The translations under genes and the position numbers were made by a program. Under the pieces are notes generated by a model. The model was not told the origin of the DNA, searched no databases, and was given only the letters and a program-made list of their open reading frames with translations. Positions 1,947 to 21,107 of a stretch of 21,334 nucleotides of DNA are shown here, in pieces; positions within the stretch are counted from its first letter, which is position 1, and the number at the start of each line of letters is the position of its first letter. The stretch comes from a virus. The DNA lies in the IMG/VR virus record IMGVR_UViG_3300042485_001869, positions 1 through 21,334 of that record; one strand, 5' to 3'.

Positions 1947-4900
1947 TTATATTGTGTTTCCGTTACTTAATAATTTTTGTTTTACCTGTCTAGTTATTGT
2001 ATCGATATTTTTTAATACATCTGGTGATAAATTGTCAGGTATTATAAACCCATACGATGTTTGTCCATTTTCTTTATTAAATACTAAATTAATATTAGTT
2101 TCATCTGGTATTTTAGATAATAATAATAATTTATTTATTGTGTTATTAGTATAAGAAGATACCGATAGAGTACTTACTAAATTAGGTGATACTTTAATAG
2201 CAAACACCGAACCGTTCGGAATAATACCAGCTGTTACTACATTAAGTTCTTGTACTTGAGTACTGTTATTATAATAAAGAAGAATCACATCTCCAACCTT
2301 AGGTGAAAAAGTATAGTCTATGTTTCCATAAATTGGATGTAAATCAGCAGAACTAGTTTCAGATAAATATAAATAATCTTTAAAACTAGATAAGCTTTCG
2401 TTTAAAAATAATGTATCAGTACCATTAGAAGATGATATAAATGGAGCAGCAGAGCTAGTAGCAAACGGATTTATACCGGTAGTTGCTGTTGATATTGAAT
2501 TTCTTAATCCTGTATATGGAGTTAGGTCCCCGGTGTTAAGTAAAGATGCTGTATAGGATCCTGTAGATACTGATTGTAATAGTCTAAAAAATATTTTATC
2601 TCCAGGATTAAAGTTAGTATAAGAACTAGTTACATTAAAATCAAGTACTGAGGATAAATTTCCTAAAGATGATGTGAATGTTTTTGTTTGAGAAGCTAAC
2701 GTTGTACTTCCTGAAACTATACTAAAAGTATAAGAAGCACTCTGAACTGCTGTTGGAAATTGGATATTAACACCAAAGTTTGCTGAGAAGTCCATAGTAA
2801 TATTCTGTGATGCTGAATAGAAAGGGAAACTTCCAGTAACACCTAAATTATAGTAAGCACGGCCCTCAAACGTACCATCAATATTATTAAAGGCGTTATA
2901 TACAAACCCACCACTAGGAGCATACTGATTGGTTGACCCCCCATTTATAAACCCATTATTATTATTACTACGGAATAAAATTGAAGTACCTACTCCAACA
3001 TATTGGAAATATAATTTTGTAGAACCTGTACTGTAATATAATGTTGGATAGTAAGAATATCCACTATCAAATACTGATTTAGGACCATCTGTTTTTTTCT
3101 GATCTCCATATTGTTGATTGTCAAATAAAGCAACAGTTGGATTTGAACCTAACTTAAACGTATTTTGAACTTCAGACCAATTACTATCTATACTTGAAGT
3201 AGGTGTTTGACTTAATTCAGTTAAACTACCACTTTCATCTACTAAATATTTTAGAGCAACTAAGTTACGACTACTAAAGAATGAACTACTTACAACTTGA
3301 GTAAATAAACCAAATTTTCTGACATACCTATCAATTGCTGCTGTTTTACCATATGATTTATCGCCTACCCAAACTGAAGAAGATGGGGAATAGGTATTAT
3401 AATTAGCACTATATGTTTTAGAACCACTATAACGTGGTAGTGTGTATGCAGATAATGATAAATAAGAATCTTGTAATGAAGCTGTTACTAATAATGGAAA
3501 AGATCCACTTCCAATTATTTGAGAGCTACCTGATATTTCTAAAGTTTTTCTTGATGTTGAATATAAACTAGTAGATACATTATTTAACATTACGTTAAAA
3601 TCTGAATGTATAAAATCATTATAATCAGGCATTTTAGGTTTTGCATTACCTGGTAATGTGCCATAAGTACCTACTGTATATAATAATCCTGAAGCTGATA
3701 CACTTGAAGATATATTTTGTAATGAACTACTATATAGTGCTAAAGATCTACTAAAATTTAAAGCAACTGAAATATTTTGGGTTGTATTTGCAGTTGTTGA
3801 ACCTGTTGGTACATAAATAATTTTGTTTGTGTTAATCATATTAGATGATGTAGCTACAAATAAAATACCATTTATATCAACAGATTGTGTAGATGGGTTA
3901 TTAGAAGCACCTGAAAAATAACTAGTAGTACTTCCTGAAATTACATAGTAAGTATTTGCTATAGAGGCATTTACATCAAAGCTTGTAGTAAAGTTAAGAT
4001 TAGGAAAACTATTATAAGCATTTATATATTGTAATGAACTACTATAAGGAGCTAAAGATTTACTATAATTAAAAGAAGCAGAAATATTTGTTATACTATC
4101 ATTAAAAGTAGATCCTGTAGAAACATATATAGTAGTAGCAGTATTTGAAGGTAGTGTACTACCAGTAATAGCAATTATTATTCCATTTATATTAAATGAA
4201 CCTGTTGGATTTAATAATGAAGACAAACTAGCACTACTTATAGATAAAGTAGCTGGGGTTGATATAAATGAAGCTGTTGCTTCTGGAATAAAAATATTAG
4301 CTAGGCTAGCACTAGTTTCATAAATAAATTTATATCCAAATATAGGAAAAGGATTTGATGATGAAACTTGGGGTTGGAAAGCATCTGATGAAGTGTATTG
4401 TAAACTACTTAGCCATGGATTTTTATTATTTACTACAAAATAATCATCATATATATTAATTTCAGATCCAGGAATTTCTCCATTTATATAAGATACTTTA
4501 CTTCCAGATAAATCATAATAAAAAGAATCATATACAGATTCAAAAACAGGAGCCACAACGCTACCATCTTTTTCCAGTTCATTAATAGCTTCAGGTTGAG
4601 CATAAGACCATTTATTTCTCTCTAAAACAGGAGAATTAATAGTAACACCTGTTGAAAGACTAGTTCTTGCAGGAACATAATCTTCTAACATCTTAAACAT
4701 TGAATTATCAAAAAACTGGATTAAGCGAATAAATCCATTGTAATCTAAAAGTGAGCCTGTAAATCCAGCATATGAACCAGTACCATCAACAAAATATATT
4801 TGTCTTTGAGCATCTAAATCACTATATGACCCACTATATTGTTGTTGAGGATTACCTATGTAATTATCTATTGACCAATTATTATTAACAGATGCTATAG

Positions 4901-7442
4901 ATTTAGAAACATAAGTATCTAACTGTGTTTGAGGTGAGAATGATATATCAACATAATGTTCATCTGCTGTTCTAAAATTAGATGATGCAGTTGTGTATTG
5001 TAATATACTTGTATAAGGTGATAAAACACTTCCAAAAGTACCAGCTACACTTGCAGTAACATTATCAACAATTCTAACTTTATCATTATTATATCCTGCT
5101 AGTAATCCTTCAGTTGTAGAACCACCAAATTCTTTTACATTTAATACACTATAATTAAGATTACTACCAGTAGGGGTATAATAAGAGTTTGTTACAAATA
5201 ATGAGCTTGTAATTAATCTTCCCCCAACATACGAACCAGAAAGATTATCTATTTTAGAATAAAAATCTTGATTTAGTATACCGAATGTAGATAATAATGT
5301 TCTTAAACCAGCAACAGTACCCTTACGTTGTAATAATAAAGGTAAATTATGGTAAATACGTTTATATGATTCTGCTAAAATATCTTTTTTAGGAATAGTA
5401 TTTAAGAAAGAACCTGTTCCTCCAGAAAAATATAATGTAGTACTTCCAGAAATAGCATAGTAGGAATTAGCTAAATCACCATCTAAATTAAAACTTGTTG
5501 TAAAATTTAAATTTGATGAAGAATTTTGAGTGGTAATATATTGTAAAGAAGAACTATAAAAAGAGAATGAACTACTTACGTTAAATGATGCAACAATGTT
5601 ATTTAAAGTATCATTAAATGTAGAACCAGTTGGAATATATATAGTAGTTGGTGTGTTTAATGGACCCGAATATATACTGCTTGAAATACTACCTGTAATA
5701 TTTAATATAGTTCCATTTACAATAAAAGATCCTGTTGGGTTTAATATTGGTGACAAACTAGCACTGCTTATAGATAAAGTAGCTGGGATGTTACCTAATG
5801 TAAAATTTTCGTTAAAATTACTACTTCCACTATTTCCTAATAAATAATTAGCAATGTTTTGATTACCAAGACTATTAAATATACTTACTCCTAAAGATTG
5901 TAACATATTGTATACAAGATCTTTAGAAATACCAATCTCTAAATTATTATTAGCTAAATTTATTTCGGGAATTGTTTTGATATATATCCATATATTATCA
6001 AAAAACTGACCCATCATATTTAAGAAGGTTATATAATTTTCATTATCTGGGTCATCTACTACATAACCTGGTACTGAATATTTAAAATAGTCAACATTAT
6101 TCAGGTCATAGTCTTCAGCATTTAGGGAAGATGATGCATACCAAATTCCAACAGCTGATGATGTTGTAGGTAATAAAACATATGGTTTATAACTTCCTGA
6201 TTTAGGAAAAGGAGTTATTCCATATCGAGTTGTTGAAACTAAACTACCTGATTCAAAATATAAATAATTTTCAAATCCATCAAAGTTTGAAATAATACTG
6301 TTAATACTAGCAGAATATGTGTTTATTTCTGATTGTAAACTACTAGAAAAACTGCCTGAGAAGCTACCGCTTATTAAGTTATAAGTTGGGTATTGAGCTA
6401 TAAGATTGTTATAATTTTCAATTTGTTGAACCTTAGTATAAAAATTATGTACACGTGAGAAAGCAGATCCAAATGTTACAAAACTACCAAATCCACTTTC
6501 ACCACTTCCATTACCACTATAATTTATATTAATATCAATACTTTGAGAATTATTTAGTTTAAATAATCCTTCTTGATCATTTGCAAACTGATTTTCATAG
6601 GGTCCATCAGTTGAATTTAGACCAAACCTTGATAGATTACTAAAATTGGGTCCTCTTAATGTGCTACCGGTTGCTGCAGATAGTATAGCATCAAGATTAA
6701 TATCAAAAATATATGGTGTTGAAATTTCTTCTACAACCCATAATGATGATTTTTCAGTAATAGAATCATCTAAAGTATTATATAACTTAAACAATATTTC
6801 ATATCCAGTATCAACTCTATTTAAAACAATATTAGTAACAAGTTCTTGTATATTATTACCAAAATTTAAAAGAAACGGATCGAAAATAGAAGATGTAGTA
6901 TAAGATTCAATTAAAGCAAGAGAACCAGTTTCAATTTGATCATTAGTTAAAACAACAGACCCAACTCTAATTTCAGTTCTATCAGGAGAAATTTCTTTAA
7001 TAAATAATTCTGCTGATGGGTAACTTGAGATTTTATTTTTAAATATATTATATTGAACCTTAAATTCACCTGATGAATAGCCTAAATTTTGTAAGTCTTG
7101 TACAGGATCAATTTCAATGATAGGATATGTAGAAGACGTTGTACTTAAATTAGATACAGTGCCTACTTGAGCTCCTGTAGCTGTTTGATTTGTTGTATTT
7201 AAATCAGGGGTTACTCCTGGATTTAGAGATTCATCTGTAGGTAATTTATAACTACGATAATTGTAATTATCTTCTAGAGGATTACTTGTAATATCATAAA
7301 CATAATATTCTATATAATCATTAAAAGGGTCAAAACTTTTTTTAATATTTAAAGAAGTAATTAACCTTAAGTCATCTGTTTCATAACGTGAAACTTGACT
7401 TGTACTTAGAATACTACCTACTATTTTAATATTATCTGCCAT
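1947..7442 (-). CDS. Very large tail/baseplate structural protein with duplicated modules
   Basis: An 1831-residue protein, Ser/Thr/Asn/Gly-rich and largely beta-predicted by eye, with no signal peptide. Conserved-looking backbone segments are NLEIGISKDLVYNMLQSLG (about 501-519), YKRIYHNLPLLLQRKGT followed by VAGLRTLL (about 690-715), IRLIQFFDNSMFKMLEDYVP (about 905-925) and PDYNDFIHSDFNVML (after 1260). I recall the same segments in long structural proteins of environmental T4-like phages. Between them are three copies of a module with a core like TTIYIPTGSTFND then YSSSLQYI then YYAISGSTT, at about 553-678, 1063-1179 and a shorter 1180-1245. Two copies are still alike at DNA level, pointing to recent duplication. 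It is likely a baseplate-attached fibre or peripheral tail protein. Receptor contact is an inference from the variable modules. The start ATG is 4 bases after the preceding stop. Confidence 0.85.
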   Translation of the reverse strand: MADNIKIVGSILSTSQVSRYETDDLRLITSLNIKKSFDPFNDYIEYYVYDITSNPLEDNYNYRSYKLPTDESLNPGVTPDLNTTNQTATGAQVGTVSNLSTTSSTYPIIEIDPVQDLQNLGYSSGEFKVQYNIFKNKISSYPSAELFIKEISPDRTEIRVGSVVLTNDQIETGSLALIESYTTSSIFDPFLLNFGNNIQELVTNIVLNRVDTGYEILFKLYNTLDDSITEKSSLWVVEEISTPYIFDINLDAILSAATGSTLRGPNFSNLSRFGLNSTDGPYENQFANDQEGLFKLNNSQSIDININYSGNGSGESGFGSFVTFGSAFSRVHNFYTKVQQIENYNNLIAQYPTYNLISGSFSGSFSSSLQSEINTYSASINSIISNFDGFENYLYFESGSLVSTTRYGITPFPKSGSYKPYVLLPTTSSAVGIWYASSSLNAEDYDLNNVDYFKYSVPGYVVDDPDNENYITFLNMMGQFFDNIWIYIKTIPEINLANNNLEIGISKDLVYNMLQSLGVSIFNSLGNQNIANYLLGNSGSSNFNENFTLGNIPATLSISSASLSPILNPTGSFIVNGTILNITGSISSSIYSGPLNTPTTIYIPTGSTFNDTLNNIVASFNVSSSFSFYSSSLQYITTQNSSSNLNFTTSFNLDGDLANSYYAISGSTTLYFSGGTGSFLNTIPKKDILAESYKRIYHNLPLLLQRKGTVAGLRTLLSTFGILNQDFYSKIDNLSGSYVGGRLITSSLFVTNSYYTPTGSNLNYSVLNVKEFGGSTTEGLLAGYNNDKVRIVDNVTASVAGTFGSVLSPYTSILQYTTASSNFRTADEHYVDISFSPQTQLDTYVSKSIASVNNNWSIDNYIGNPQQQYSGSYSDLDAQRQIYFVDGTGSYAGFTGSLLDYNGFIRLIQFFDNSMFKMLEDYVPARTSLSTGVTINSPVLERNKWSYAQPEAINELEKDGSVVAPVFESVYDSFYYDLSGSKVSYINGEIPGSEINIYDDYFVVNNKNPWLSSLQYTSSDAFQPQVSSSNPFPIFGYKFIYETSASLANIFIPEATASFISTPATLSISSASLSSLLNPTGSFNINGIIIAITGSTLPSNTATTIYVSTGSTFNDSITNISASFNYSKSLAPYSSSLQYINAYNSFPNLNFTTSFDVNASIANTYYVISGSTTSYFSGASNNPSTQSVDINGILFVATSSNMINTNKIIYVPTGSTTANTTQNISVALNFSRSLALYSSSLQNISSSVSASGLLYTVGTYGTLPGNAKPKMPDYNDFIHSDFNVMLNNVSTSLYSTSRKTLEISGSSQIIGSGSFPLLVTASLQDSYLSLSAYTLPRYSGSKTYSANYNTYSPSSSVWVGDKSYGKTAAIDRYVRKFGLFTQVVSSSFFSSRNLVALKYLVDESGSLTELSQTPTSSIDSNWSEVQNTFKLGSNPTVALFDNQQYGDQKKTDGPKSVFDSGYSYYPTLYYSTGSTKLYFQYVGVGTSILFRSNNNNGFINGGSTNQYAPSGGFVYNAFNNIDGTFEGRAYYNLGVTGSFPFYSASQNITMDFSANFGVNIQFPTAVQSASYTFSIVSGSTTLASQTKTFTSSLGNLSSVLDFNVTSSYTNFNPGDKIFFRLLQSVSTGSYTASLLNTGDLTPYTGLRNSISTATTGINPFATSSAAPFISSSNGTDTLFLNESLSSFKDYLYLSETSSADLHPIYGNIDYTFSPKVGDVILLYYNNSTQVQELNVVTAGIIPNGSVFAIKVSPNLVSTLSVSSYTNNTINKLLLLSKIPDETNINLVFNKENGQTSYGFIIPDNLSPDVLKNIDTITRQVKQKLLSNGNTI
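3709..3903 (-). repeat. Intragenic module copy C (short, diverged)
   Basis: The third, shorter copy of the module in the 1831-residue protein. It encodes KIIYVPTGSTTANTTQNISV and then LALYSSSLQNISS. At 3715-3776 it is still recognisably similar in DNA to 4026-4090 of copy B, for example in the shared string aatgaactactat and the following ctaaagat. It lacks the part corresponding to YYAISGSTT. Confidence 0.7.
3908..4256 (-). repeat. Intragenic module copy B
   Basis: Encodes PATLSISSASLSSLLNPTGS through YYVISGSTTSYFSG, residues about 1063-1179 of the 1831-residue protein. Its beginning is nearly identical in DNA to copy A: + strand 4224-4256 and 5754-5786 share gacaaactagcact and cttatagataaagtagctgg with one mismatch between them. 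This implies duplication within the gene, not convergent protein similarity. Confidence 0.85.
5411..5786 (-). repeat. Intragenic module copy A
   Basis: Encodes PATLSISSASLSPILNPTGS through YYAISGSTTLYFSGG, residues about 553-678 of the 1831-residue protein. It sits between two conserved backbone segments of the protein and looks like an insertion in a tolerant loop. It is paired with copies B and C further along the same gene. Confidence 0.85.
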
Positions 7443-18116: not shown

Positions 18117-18191
18117 AAAATTGTATTAAAAGAGATTTTGGGGTTTTGCAAAGTGGGTGAAAAAGGAGTTAAATAGAAACGCGGATATGCG
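18117..18191. other. Gene-free flank of the RNA islet
   Basis: 75 bases between the 60-residue gene's leader and the putative + strand RNA. On the + strand it is G-rich in the middle (ttggggttttgcaaagtggg). No credible gene was found. It may hold upstream elements of the + strand transcript. Confidence 0.35.
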
Positions 18192-18200
18192 TATATACTG
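18192..18200 (+). promoter_or_regulatory. Candidate + strand promoter box TATATACTG
   Basis: Lies directly before the 5' arm (18201) of the long-range stem. A start about 7 bases after a -7 type box would fall at or near 18201. No -33 element is evident. Confidence 0.3.
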
Positions 18201-18357
18201 TCGGGGCGTAAAGATCGTTGTCGCGTTGAGAATACCCCAGGCTCTGCCCTTTTTTGTGCGCGCCGTCGATGGACCGCAATTGGCATGGGATCAGACCGCG
18301 CACGCCCCGATATCGATCCGCTAGCAACGGCAAAAGAGCAAATCTGCTAGCTTTTTT
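18201..18357 (+). ncRNA. Candidate structured small RNA, antisense to all genes
   Basis: A GC-rich island of about 157 bases in AT-rich surroundings. On the + strand a closing stem forms from tcggggc (18201-18207) and gccccga (18304-18310). Directly stacked on it is a second stem, gtgcgcg (18256-18262) with cgcgcac (18297-18303). Then comes a terminator hairpin, gctagca (18320-18326) with tgctagc (18345-18351), followed by six T. All three stems are perfect matches. The T-tract is on the + side only, which orients the transcript. No credible protein is encoded (the + reading frames across it are low-complexity and His/Arg-rich). I do not recognise a known RNA family. Confidence 0.5.
18320..18357 (+). 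terminator. Intrinsic terminator on the + strand
   Basis: A 7-bp perfect stem gctagca/tgctagc with an 18-base loop, directly followed by TTTTTT at 18352-18357. The large loop makes it weaker than a typical terminator. It lies just beyond the 3' end of the EF-hand gene, which converges from the other strand. Confidence 0.55.
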
Positions 18358-18368
18358 GTACGCGCGCG

Positions 18369-18575
18369 CTATATTTTTACACCCACGCGATCTAGTATAT
18401 CCTTGTATTCAGCAGGCGATTCATCACCGTATCCGCCTGAATTATCATCATCGCCCATTAGCTCGTCTAATATTGACTGCGCTTCTTGCTTTGTCACCCA
18501 TCCATCACCGTCTACATCGATTATGTTTCCTACATAGTACATGTCGTTCATGTTCATTAAATCGTTTACGTTCAT
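18369..18575 (-). CDS. Single EF-hand-loop protein
   Basis: A 68-residue acidic protein. Residues 20-31 are a textbook calcium-binding EF-hand loop, DVDGDGWVTKQE: Asp20, Asp22, Asp24, Thr28 and the bidentate Glu31 are all present, with Gly25 at the turn. An entering helix (about 10-19) and an exiting helix (AQSILDELMG, 32-41) flank it. The C-terminal 27 residues are Asp/Gly/Ser-rich, then helical (AEYKDILDRV). With one loop only, it may pair as a dimer or act as a dockerin-like unit. It has no signal peptide. The leader is AT-rich (AATTAATAATATG) without a Shine-Dalgarno. The 66-residue gene lies 16 bases upstream. Confidence 0.8.
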   Translation of the reverse strand: MNVNDLMNMNDMYYVGNIIDVDGDGWVTKQEAQSILDELMGDDDNSGGYGDESPAEYKDILDRVGVKI

Positions 18576-19318: not shown

Positions 19319-19335
19319 GGGCCCTGCCAGGCCCC
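19319..19335 (-). terminator. GC-rich hairpin bounding the C-free gene
   Basis: ggggcctggcagggccc on the minus strand: a 5-bp GC stem around a 6-base loop, followed by TATTCTTAT. The stem is strong but the T-run is poor. It lies 61 bases after the stop of the C-free gene and coincides with the end of the G-free stretch. It is probably a terminator, with processing or a boundary element as alternatives. Confidence 0.4.
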
Positions 19336-19396
19336 ATTTATTTAATTTAATATATTAATATTTTCAAACTATTTCATTATAATATATTATTTTAAT

Positions 19397-19768
19397 TTAA
19401 CTATACTTATTAACTATATTATTAATTAATTCTTCTACATTTAAATCTTTACCTATACTATATAATACTAAATCATTATAAACATTTAAATTATTAAACA
19501 TTACTTTAATTTCATTACTATTATTATCTATATAAACACTACCAATATTAAATTTATTTCTAACTTTTAATACTAATTCATTATTTAATTTTCTTTTTTC
19601 ATCTAATTTTTTATTTAATTCATTTACTTCTTTATTTAATTTTTCTAACTTTTTAAAATCAACATCTTTTTCTAATTTACCTTTAATACTTTCATACTTT
19701 TTTTCATTAATTCTTTTACTAATTTCCATACTTAATACATTCATTTCATTCATACTTAACTTTTTCAT
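19397..19768 (-). CDS. C-free gene for a Lys/Asn-rich coiled-coil protein
   Basis: A 123-residue protein whose coding strand has no C: 56 G, no C, the rest A and T (hand count). Ala, Pro, Thr, His and Gln, which all need a C in the codon, are therefore absent. Cys and Trp are also missing although codons without C exist. The sequence starts MKKLSMNEMNVLSMEISKRI. Residues about 20-70 are Lys/Glu/Leu/Asn heptad-like (LEKLNKEVNELNKKLDEKRK), a probable coiled coil. Residues 70-123 alternate as in a small alpha/beta domain (SVYIDNNSNEIKVMF, then VEELINNIVNKYS). The frame is open, begins with ATG after an AT-rich leader, and has a promoter-like box upstream, so it looks real. The function is unknown. 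Confidence 0.7.
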   Translation of the reverse strand: MKKLSMNEMNVLSMEISKRINEKKYESIKGKLEKDVDFKKLEKLNKEVNELNKKLDEKRKLNNELVLKVRNKFNIGSVYIDNNSNEIKVMFNNLNVYNDLVLYSIGKDLNVEELINNIVNKYS

Positions 19769-19796
19769 AAACTTTTAATTTTTAATTTTTAATAAT

Positions 19797-19810
19797 ACAT
19801 AAATATACAT
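19797..19810 (-). promoter_or_regulatory. Promoter-like box ATGTATATTTATGT
   Basis: Located 29-42 bases upstream of the ATG at 19768, inside the G-free stretch. TATATTTATG is the closest match in the window to the Bacteroidota TAnnTTTG type. A transcript starting just after it would contain no C from start to the hairpin at 19319-19335. Confidence 0.45.
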
Positions 19811-19964
19811 AATTAATTCTTACTTTCCAAATATATTTATAACTATTTCTAATTATTTTTATATATATTTTTATTAAATTTTTAATTATTAATATTATAT
19901 ATTAAATATAATAAATTAATTTTGCCTTTCATAATTATTCATAACTATTTTTTTATATATTTTA
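19811..19964. other. Extremely AT-rich gene-free stretch
   Basis: 154 bases between the C-free gene's promoter box and the structured islet, including 74 bases of pure A/T at 19850-19923. No credible gene. Such a stretch could be an easily melted site (origin-like) or simply a promoter-upstream region. No iterons were seen. Confidence 0.4.
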
Positions 19965-20100
19965 GTGGTGGGTGGGGAACCCGTGAGCAGAAATACCGTA
20001 TGAATCTCAACGATCGGGAAGCTAGTGATCGACTGTCTGGTGAGCACGCGATCCAGACGGTCAGCGAAGGAGCCCGGGTAGAAACCCGAGCTCGATCACC
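19965..20100 (+). ncRNA. Candidate structured RNA or DNA element, GC-rich islet
   Basis: About 136 GC-rich bases between very AT-rich flanks. Visible stems (+ coordinates): 20031-20040 with 20053-20062, 10 bp with one G-U pair, 12-base loop; 20070-20074 plus 20075-20079 with 20084-20088 plus 20089-20093, 9 bp with one C/A mismatch and an AGAA loop; an outer stem gtgatc (20025-20030) with gatcac (20094-20099) closing both into a three-way junction; and an upstream hairpin, gggaaccc type, at 19974-19982. The strand is uncertain: the + strand has TATATTTT just before (19957-19964) as a possible promoter, but no T-tract follows. It could instead be the 3' end of the minus-strand gene at 20123. 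No known RNA family was recognised. Confidence 0.45.
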
Positions 20101-20122
20101 ATTAAAAATTAAAAGTATGAAC

Positions 20123-20867: not shown

Positions 20868-21107
20868 CTAAGCCATCACTGACTCAGATTTAGTTTTCTT
20901 CGGTGCGCCACGCTTGATCTCAATTCCGGCTGCGATCTTAGCTGCCTTCGCGGCTAATTTAGCTTGGCGAGCACTAGTCTGGCTAGCTGGACGACCTCTT
21001 CCAATTGACAATCCTTGTGCTGCTCTTTGAGCACGCGCATCTAATCTTGCTTGACGAGCTGATCCAGCTACTACTGGACGACCTCTTTTACCTGTTTCTT
21101 TTGACAT
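20868..21107 (-). CDS. AT-hook protein built of 29-residue repeats
   Basis: A 79-residue, very basic and Ala-rich protein. AT-hook cores RGRP occur at 8-11 and 37-40, and a degenerate RGAP at 66-69, so the spacing is exactly 29 residues both times. Each unit continues with SARQA+L, then A-rich +AAG (GSARQARLDARAQRAAQG and TSARQAKLAAKAAKIAAG). AT-hooks bind the minor groove of AT-rich DNA, so it may bind the phage's own AT-rich regions or compact or silence host DNA. A DNA-level repeat is also visible (ctggacgacctctt occurs twice, about 87 bases apart). It lacks a membrane segment. An ATG leader of A/T and a T-run precede it, and a strong terminator follows. Confidence 0.85.
   Translation of the reverse strand: MSKETGKRGRPVVAGSARQARLDARAQRAAQGLSIGRGRPASQTSARQAKLAAKAAKIAAGIEIKRGAPKKTKSESVMA
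20987..21084 (-). repeat. In-frame tandem repeat of 87 bases in the AT-hook gene
   Basis: The string ctggacgacctctt (+ strand) occurs near 20987 and 21071, one 29-codon unit apart. It reflects the repeated RGRP-SARQA unit of the protein. The third unit near the C-terminus is more diverged. Confidence 0.6.

Follow-up and report, generated by a model that had tools for sequence, protein, structure and literature searches.

The DNA analysed here, called the window below, is a stretch of 21,334 nt from IMG/VR virus record IMGVR_UViG_3300042485_001869. Base counting confirmed the first-pass annotation of a 592-nt segment (19332-19923) that is free of G on the + strand (A 212, C 72, G 0, T 308). 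The gene encoded on the opposite strand has 0 C and 56 G in its coding strand, and its leader and 3′ untranslated region are likewise C-free. The earlier claims that the gene uses no C and that the bias spans the transcript were thus accurate, and the promoter-like box and the hairpin at 19319-19335 are found in the sequence where they had been placed. The second-longest run lacking G or C anywhere in the window is 75 nt. In 300 windows simulated with a first-order Markov model the longest C- or G-free run averaged 57.5 nt, with a maximum that never exceeded 84 nt. The features of the locus are as follows.

19332..19923, - strand: 592-nt tract with a C-free coding strand (+ strand without G), from base counts
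19903..19910, - strand: -7 box TATATTTA close to the tract's 5′ edge, from the sequence pattern and the box-to-edge relation across loci
19800..19807, - strand: second -7 box TATATTTA, ~30 nt upstream of the start codon, from the sequence
19397..19768, - strand: C-free gene of 123 aa, “KLS” family (a name coined in this analysis), from the ORF call and relatives
19348..19389, - strand: A-U-only hairpin in the 3′ untranslated region, from an alignment and RNAalifold
19358..19378, - strand: 21-nt motif AATGAAATAGTTTGAAAATAT in the hairpin loop, identical in the window and in the first three relatives found
19319..19335, - strand: G+C-rich terminator-like hairpin that holds the first C downstream of the gene, from the sequence

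The two TATATTTA boxes presumably belong to the Bacteroidota-type -7 promoter class. Neither Rfam models (at gathering thresholds) nor a tRNA search found anything over the window. A coding strand devoid of C implies proteins devoid of Ala, Thr, Pro, His and Gln. The window protein is modelled as a helical hairpin followed by a small alpha/beta tail (pLDDT 75). Foldseek gave no significant fold match for this model in the PDB (best E 1.6), and the best match of the family to the sequences of solved structures in the PDB had an E-value of 0.11. None of ten proteins encoded in this and related C-free islands matched a Pfam or PHROGs family of known function, and the window protein had no Pfam match above the cut-off; the best PHROGs matches, those of an L060 protein (5.5e-05) and of the window protein (0.00096), were to families of unknown function. 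Five island proteins (that of the window gene and one each of G001, L060, L068 and L079) had no tblastn match in the phage collection. The model of a second island family had no significant PDB match either, and its weak winged-helix-like matches were not used.

The window gene and its closer relatives are followed by an A-U-only hairpin that carries the shared 21-nt motif in its loop. RNAalifold applied to 12 sequences yielded nine consensus pairs, none of which is broken and three of which show changes on both sides. The motif AATGAAATAGTTTGAAAATAT occupies the loop of an A-U-only stem at 12 loci, and the stem lies beyond the sequence used as probe; the identity of the motif across loci arises in part by construction, as most of them were fetched by it. 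It occurs in one copy per record in all eight records found by the motif (up to 2 mismatches allowed). Contig L056 has the gene family and lacks the motif, which is therefore not required for the C-free state. As to the role of the hairpin and its motif, our guess would be a stabiliser of the 3′ end or a protein site.

C-free genes in related phages, which the first-pass annotation had proposed to look for, were found both as relatives of the window gene and as unrelated small genes. The search of viral contigs with the window protein identified three relatives (56-92% identity in the best segment), C-free throughout the part present. Used as an exact probe in IMG/VR, AATGAAATAGTTTGAAAATAT retrieved 11 contigs with the motif inside a C-free stretch in each, some of these stretches being short where the contig ends. 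A profile search added the L056 relative (~30% identity), also C-free. Homologues of the window gene remain C-free down to 30-37% protein identity. The earlier view that the bias is not a protein constraint was right. Wider patterns searched in IMG/VR (promoter box, start codon and ~150 C-free bases) gave 8 and 27 contigs. The longest tract, in L007/G001 from the motif search, has 1890 nt without C and comprises three C-free genes and most of a fourth one with one C. Among the contigs retrieved by the wider patterns, L060 has 1665 and 293 nt with one C and codes six C-free ORFs of at least 52 aa; L082 has a C-free run of 1354 nt that includes a 390-nt gene with 154 G and no C; and L067 has a run of 280 nt in a contig of 40% G+C. 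C-free runs of at least 180 nt and up to 1890 nt are present in 35 of 38 contigs or pieces, a figure that gives no estimate of frequency since C-free patterns had been used to retrieve 23 of the 38. None of the 38 has a G-free run of that length on the same strand. The three exceptions are the isolate immuto (see below) and G006 and L012, both cut at contig ends. L062 is nearly identical to L060 and was omitted from the ORF, run-start and 38-contig counts. The G content of C-free units ranges from 12% (the window tract) to 39% (one L082 gene); the absence of C over 592-1890 nt at such G contents is not plain A+T richness.

The genomes carrying these tracts are, by sequence comparison, Immutovirus-like T4-type phages of one clade. 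The window encodes a relative of the immuto-type baseplate wedge protein that is 46% identical over its full length. All 12 contigs of one comparison have this protein, as do 17 of another 22 that carry C-free or C-poor genes; the five without it may be fragments. Flavobacterium phage vB_FspM_immuto has a large T4-like genome whose TerL, major capsid and baseplate wedge proteins are 40-76% identical to those of the contigs where these reach. Its gp143 is a probable relative of one C-free gene of G001 (34% identity across 59 aa; E 2e-4, valid for that one comparison). Unlike the latter, the gp143 gene is C-poor rather than C-free, with 5 C versus 89 G in 357 nt. The longest C-free run in immuto is 158 nt, and parts of the 21-nt motif, searched as exact sub-strings, were not found. 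Only four immuto records matched gp143 in the phage collection. In the cyanophage relative Mel-JY01 the longest run is 79 nt without C and 104 nt without G.

The island is the sole place of its kind in three large contigs, where the next longest run without C or G measures 88 nt (G001, G004) or 93 nt (G003); in two contigs of near-complete size it is short, 256 nt in G018 and 187 nt in G028. The island lies upstream of the baseplate wedge gene, at a distance of ~7-14 kb in the 19 contigs where both positions were worked out. Between the island and the late genes, the window has a G+C-rich non-coding element (18120-18460) that is conserved in at least 14 other contigs, with 76% identity over 259 nt in L006 and the core GTCGATGGACCGCAATTGGCATGGGA; it is possibly an origin or a structured RNA. 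Another G+C-rich element (19960-20108) lies just upstream of the island. Its - strand folds better than shuffled sequences (z -3.4), and a part of 38-48 nt is conserved in L005, G007, L081, L082, G028 and G013. The island is also adjoined by a gene for a small basic protein (20868-21107) with repeated RGRP motifs, which we take to be AT-hook-like; G004 has a similar gene at 79743-79982.

The first C-free pattern matched nothing in cellular genomes. The second one retrieved 11 stretches, some of them archaeal and some from endosymbionts very poor in both C and G, along with one from Saprospiraceae and an odd one from Flavobacteriales. None was counted as an island, on base counts for all 11 and a reading of the sequence for three; the baseplate query had no match in two of these genomes in a search run without a control. 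The Flavobacteriales MAG contig CANEVR010000001.1 (L122), which is cellular or mobile, has a small ORF (2951-3157) whose first ~207 nt contain 59 G and no C and are followed by sequence of normal C content.

The exclusion of C is apparent at the level of codons and of substitutions. Among Y-ending two-fold and Ile codons, none of 1446 ends in C in 30 island ORFs (a set in which at least one ORF, L053 10071, is nested and some are near-duplicates), while 26.8% do so in 152 small ORFs nearby. At synonymous positions the island ORFs use G about as these neighbours do, apart from a lower use of GAG. Six pairs of the window family differ by 43-70 nucleotides each and ten pairs of a second island family by 9-167, with no difference involving C; the pairs of one family are not independent of each other. 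In seven comparisons of non-island orthologues, 37-49% of the differences involve C. Some island genes have 1-2 C.

The C-free runs often begin at a -7 box of sequence TAnnTTT(A/G). This is the case for 11 of 13 runs at loci fetched by protein or motif, a count that excludes runs from loci known only through the promoter and C-free patterns. Over all runs the box, identified by its sequence pattern, is found at the start of 37 of 54, compared to 15% of random sites, tracts that start in the first 40 nt of a contig or locus being excluded. The remaining 17 runs, G007 among them, have no -7 box near their start. In L008 and L056, two diverged phages, the sole Cs between C-free genes are directly upstream of a -7 box, with a C at the same place in both. 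At several 3′ ends, including that of the window, the first C is found in a G+C-rich terminator-like hairpin. When island proteins were compared to the contigs by tblastn, 10 of the 138 matches (self-matches included) contained C, and these 10 were the ones read. C-bearing copies outside tracts concern three island gene families and use C freely in some cases and sparingly in others: the G004 copy at 3826-3963 (oriented coordinates), 50% identical to a C-free G007 gene, has 17 C and 24 G, and those of two other families have 17, 12 and 5 C versus 16, 72 and 45 G. It had been anticipated that homologues making free use of C would argue against selection. This refutation failed for copies inside tracts; genes related to them that lie elsewhere do carry C, suggesting that it is the transcription unit that is constrained.

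An assembly error behind the window tract is unlikely: many other metagenome contigs carry related tracts whose genes have diverged and are intact, and a weaker version is found in the sequenced isolate immuto. Eight metagenome contigs (L006, G003, G005, G006, L012, L015, L052 and L063) end within or at a C-free tract. This probably reflects a break of assembly at low G+C, the alternative being a biological cause.

These phages keep, at one place of their genome, short transcription units with no or almost no C in the coding strand from the promoter onward. The C-free state and its conservation are firmly established, and they require a force that works either on the RNA or on the strand being transcribed. 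We consider it likely that the transcript is under selection: the exclusion extends for the most part to single Cs, from which we infer selection on the RNA itself. The best overall explanation, which we favour tentatively and hold to be possible rather than probable, is that something in the infected cell attacks cytidines in mRNA and that C-free messages escape. The attacker of exposed mRNA would be a C-dependent endonuclease or a base-modifying enzyme, and could serve either a host defence or the phage's own host-shutoff. Messages without C, that of the window gene being one, would go on producing small proteins needed by the phage under attack, and the first C after the gene would be shielded by its position in a terminator-like hairpin. 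Worded more broadly, it is quite possible, if short of probable, that three-letter (A, G, U) operons are kept because an undescribed Bacteroidota mechanism, immune or shut-off, acts on RNA cytidine at a time when the island genes are still needed.

We know of no C-directed RNase or modifier in these hosts. The deaminase family PF00383 had no match in 11 phage records, most of them fragments, while 12 of 14 control genomes matched. Against an attack on cytidine stands the normal C content of other phage genes that must be expressed, which would limit the attack in time or to some proteins. The 5 C tolerated in immuto, the 1-2 C of some island genes, the neighbours that are only C-poor and the runs without a -7 box near their start also speak against it. 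T4 offers two cases of phage-encoded discrimination by the base content of message or DNA: RegB cuts mRNA selectively at GGAG, and Alc causes cytosine-dependent termination by sensing unmodified C in DNA. In favour of the attack, phage defence directed at mRNA bases has a known example: in the CmdTAC system, the mRNA ADP-ribosyltransferase CmdT recognises particular bases in single-stranded mRNA, though it modifies the A of GA dinucleotides and not C (PMC11618068).

The nearest rival to cytidine attack is a shortage of CTP or a chain-terminating CTP analogue, in which any C would stall or end the transcript and the units might be switches read only at low CTP; we consider it unlikely. These two are the explanations in which a single C is costly, and the general exclusion of single Cs fits CTP limitation too, as does the absence of C from the promoter through the coding region with its return in the terminator, when the message is already complete. 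Prokaryotic viperins make ddhNTP chain terminators, producing other ddhNTPs besides ddhCTP, and a C-free message would not incorporate ddhCTP. The NCBI prokaryotic viperin model, however, scored above cut-off in only 4 of 299 genomes sampled from the order of one Flavobacteriales MAG, which may not be the true hosts of most of the phages. Sub-cut-off matches, found in 200 of the 299, came up in all 14 control genomes as well and so probably represent other radical-SAM proteins. The rarity of the enzyme leaves the earlier suggestion of viperins as the specific cause unsupported. Moreover, ddhCTP is considered less harmful to the multi-subunit RNA polymerase of the host than to viral enzymes, and no CTP synthase gene was found in eight phage records, most of them fragments. 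A search for a single-subunit RNA polymerase in the same number of records (0 of 8) is uninformative, as no control genome matched either. Cytidine attack is preferred to CTP limitation because Cs are tolerated in terminator hairpins, which would shield them and have to be completed to release the message. Mutation rather than selection is a less probable origin again: a transcription-coupled deaminase acting on the exposed non-template strand would turn every C into T, in agreement with a tract that spans transcribed DNA and lacks C on the non-template strand alone. Terminator-like hairpins at the 3′ end keep their C though they are expected to be transcribed, and so does the position just upstream of the -7 box shared by L008 and L056. 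In six alignments of C-free and C-bearing relatives, only 5 of 29 sites with Ala, Thr, Pro, His or Gln in the C-bearing relative have a C-to-T-like replacement, and Val and Gly codons show no clear surplus of T that would point to C-to-T change (small numbers). The retained Cs and the few C-to-T-like replacements disfavour mutation alone, and the persistence of C at both kinds of site weakens the strand-specific deamination put forward at first.

Two further explanations are improbable. The phages could avoid G in the template if 7-deazaguanine, made by the DpdA pathway, hindered the host RNA polymerase, the genes read first being those without template G; we give this very little credence. 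Immuto is annotated with QueC, QueD, QueE, FolE, QueF and DpdA (18.6-37.0 kb), and G003 has matches to QueC, QueD, FolE and DpdA (63.4-69.4 kb), but none to immuto QueE and QueF. The immuto DpdA query matched one of ten other records, which are mostly fragments. Template G is normal in the remaining genes of these phages, and phages known to use 7-deazaguanine substitute it for only a fraction of their G and are well transcribed. The idea that the messages evade Rho-dependent termination, or have to be unstructured, fares no better. The primary site of Rho binds C-containing RNA and a C-free RNA has no G-C pairs, but neither demand would call for the removal of every C, and whole contigs keep 11-16% C. 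With its terminator hairpin included, the window transcript is no less structured than shuffled sequences of equal composition (z -1.3). Conservation of the 3′ hairpin is a further point against this explanation.

The pattern points directly to a force that selects on RNA cytidine in the course of infection. A defence in this role would be of a new type, and nucleotide supply in this role would amount to a novel layer of gene control. To our knowledge, no link connects CmdTAC with these phages. No report of C-free phage genes was found in the literature searched, which did not cover bioRxiv preprints, and whole natural messages without one base, kept while their proteins diverge, are undescribed there. 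Most natural DNA and RNA lack long stretches missing one base, according to a published methods paper (PMC6526412).

Some islands have second-tier genes nearby that are strongly C-poor without being C-free, with 3-12 C versus 35-78 G. They are found at L060 1595-2000, G007 4188-4394 and 5758-5994 (oriented coordinates), L053 7513-7824 and in L073-L075, and possibly represent an intermediate state.
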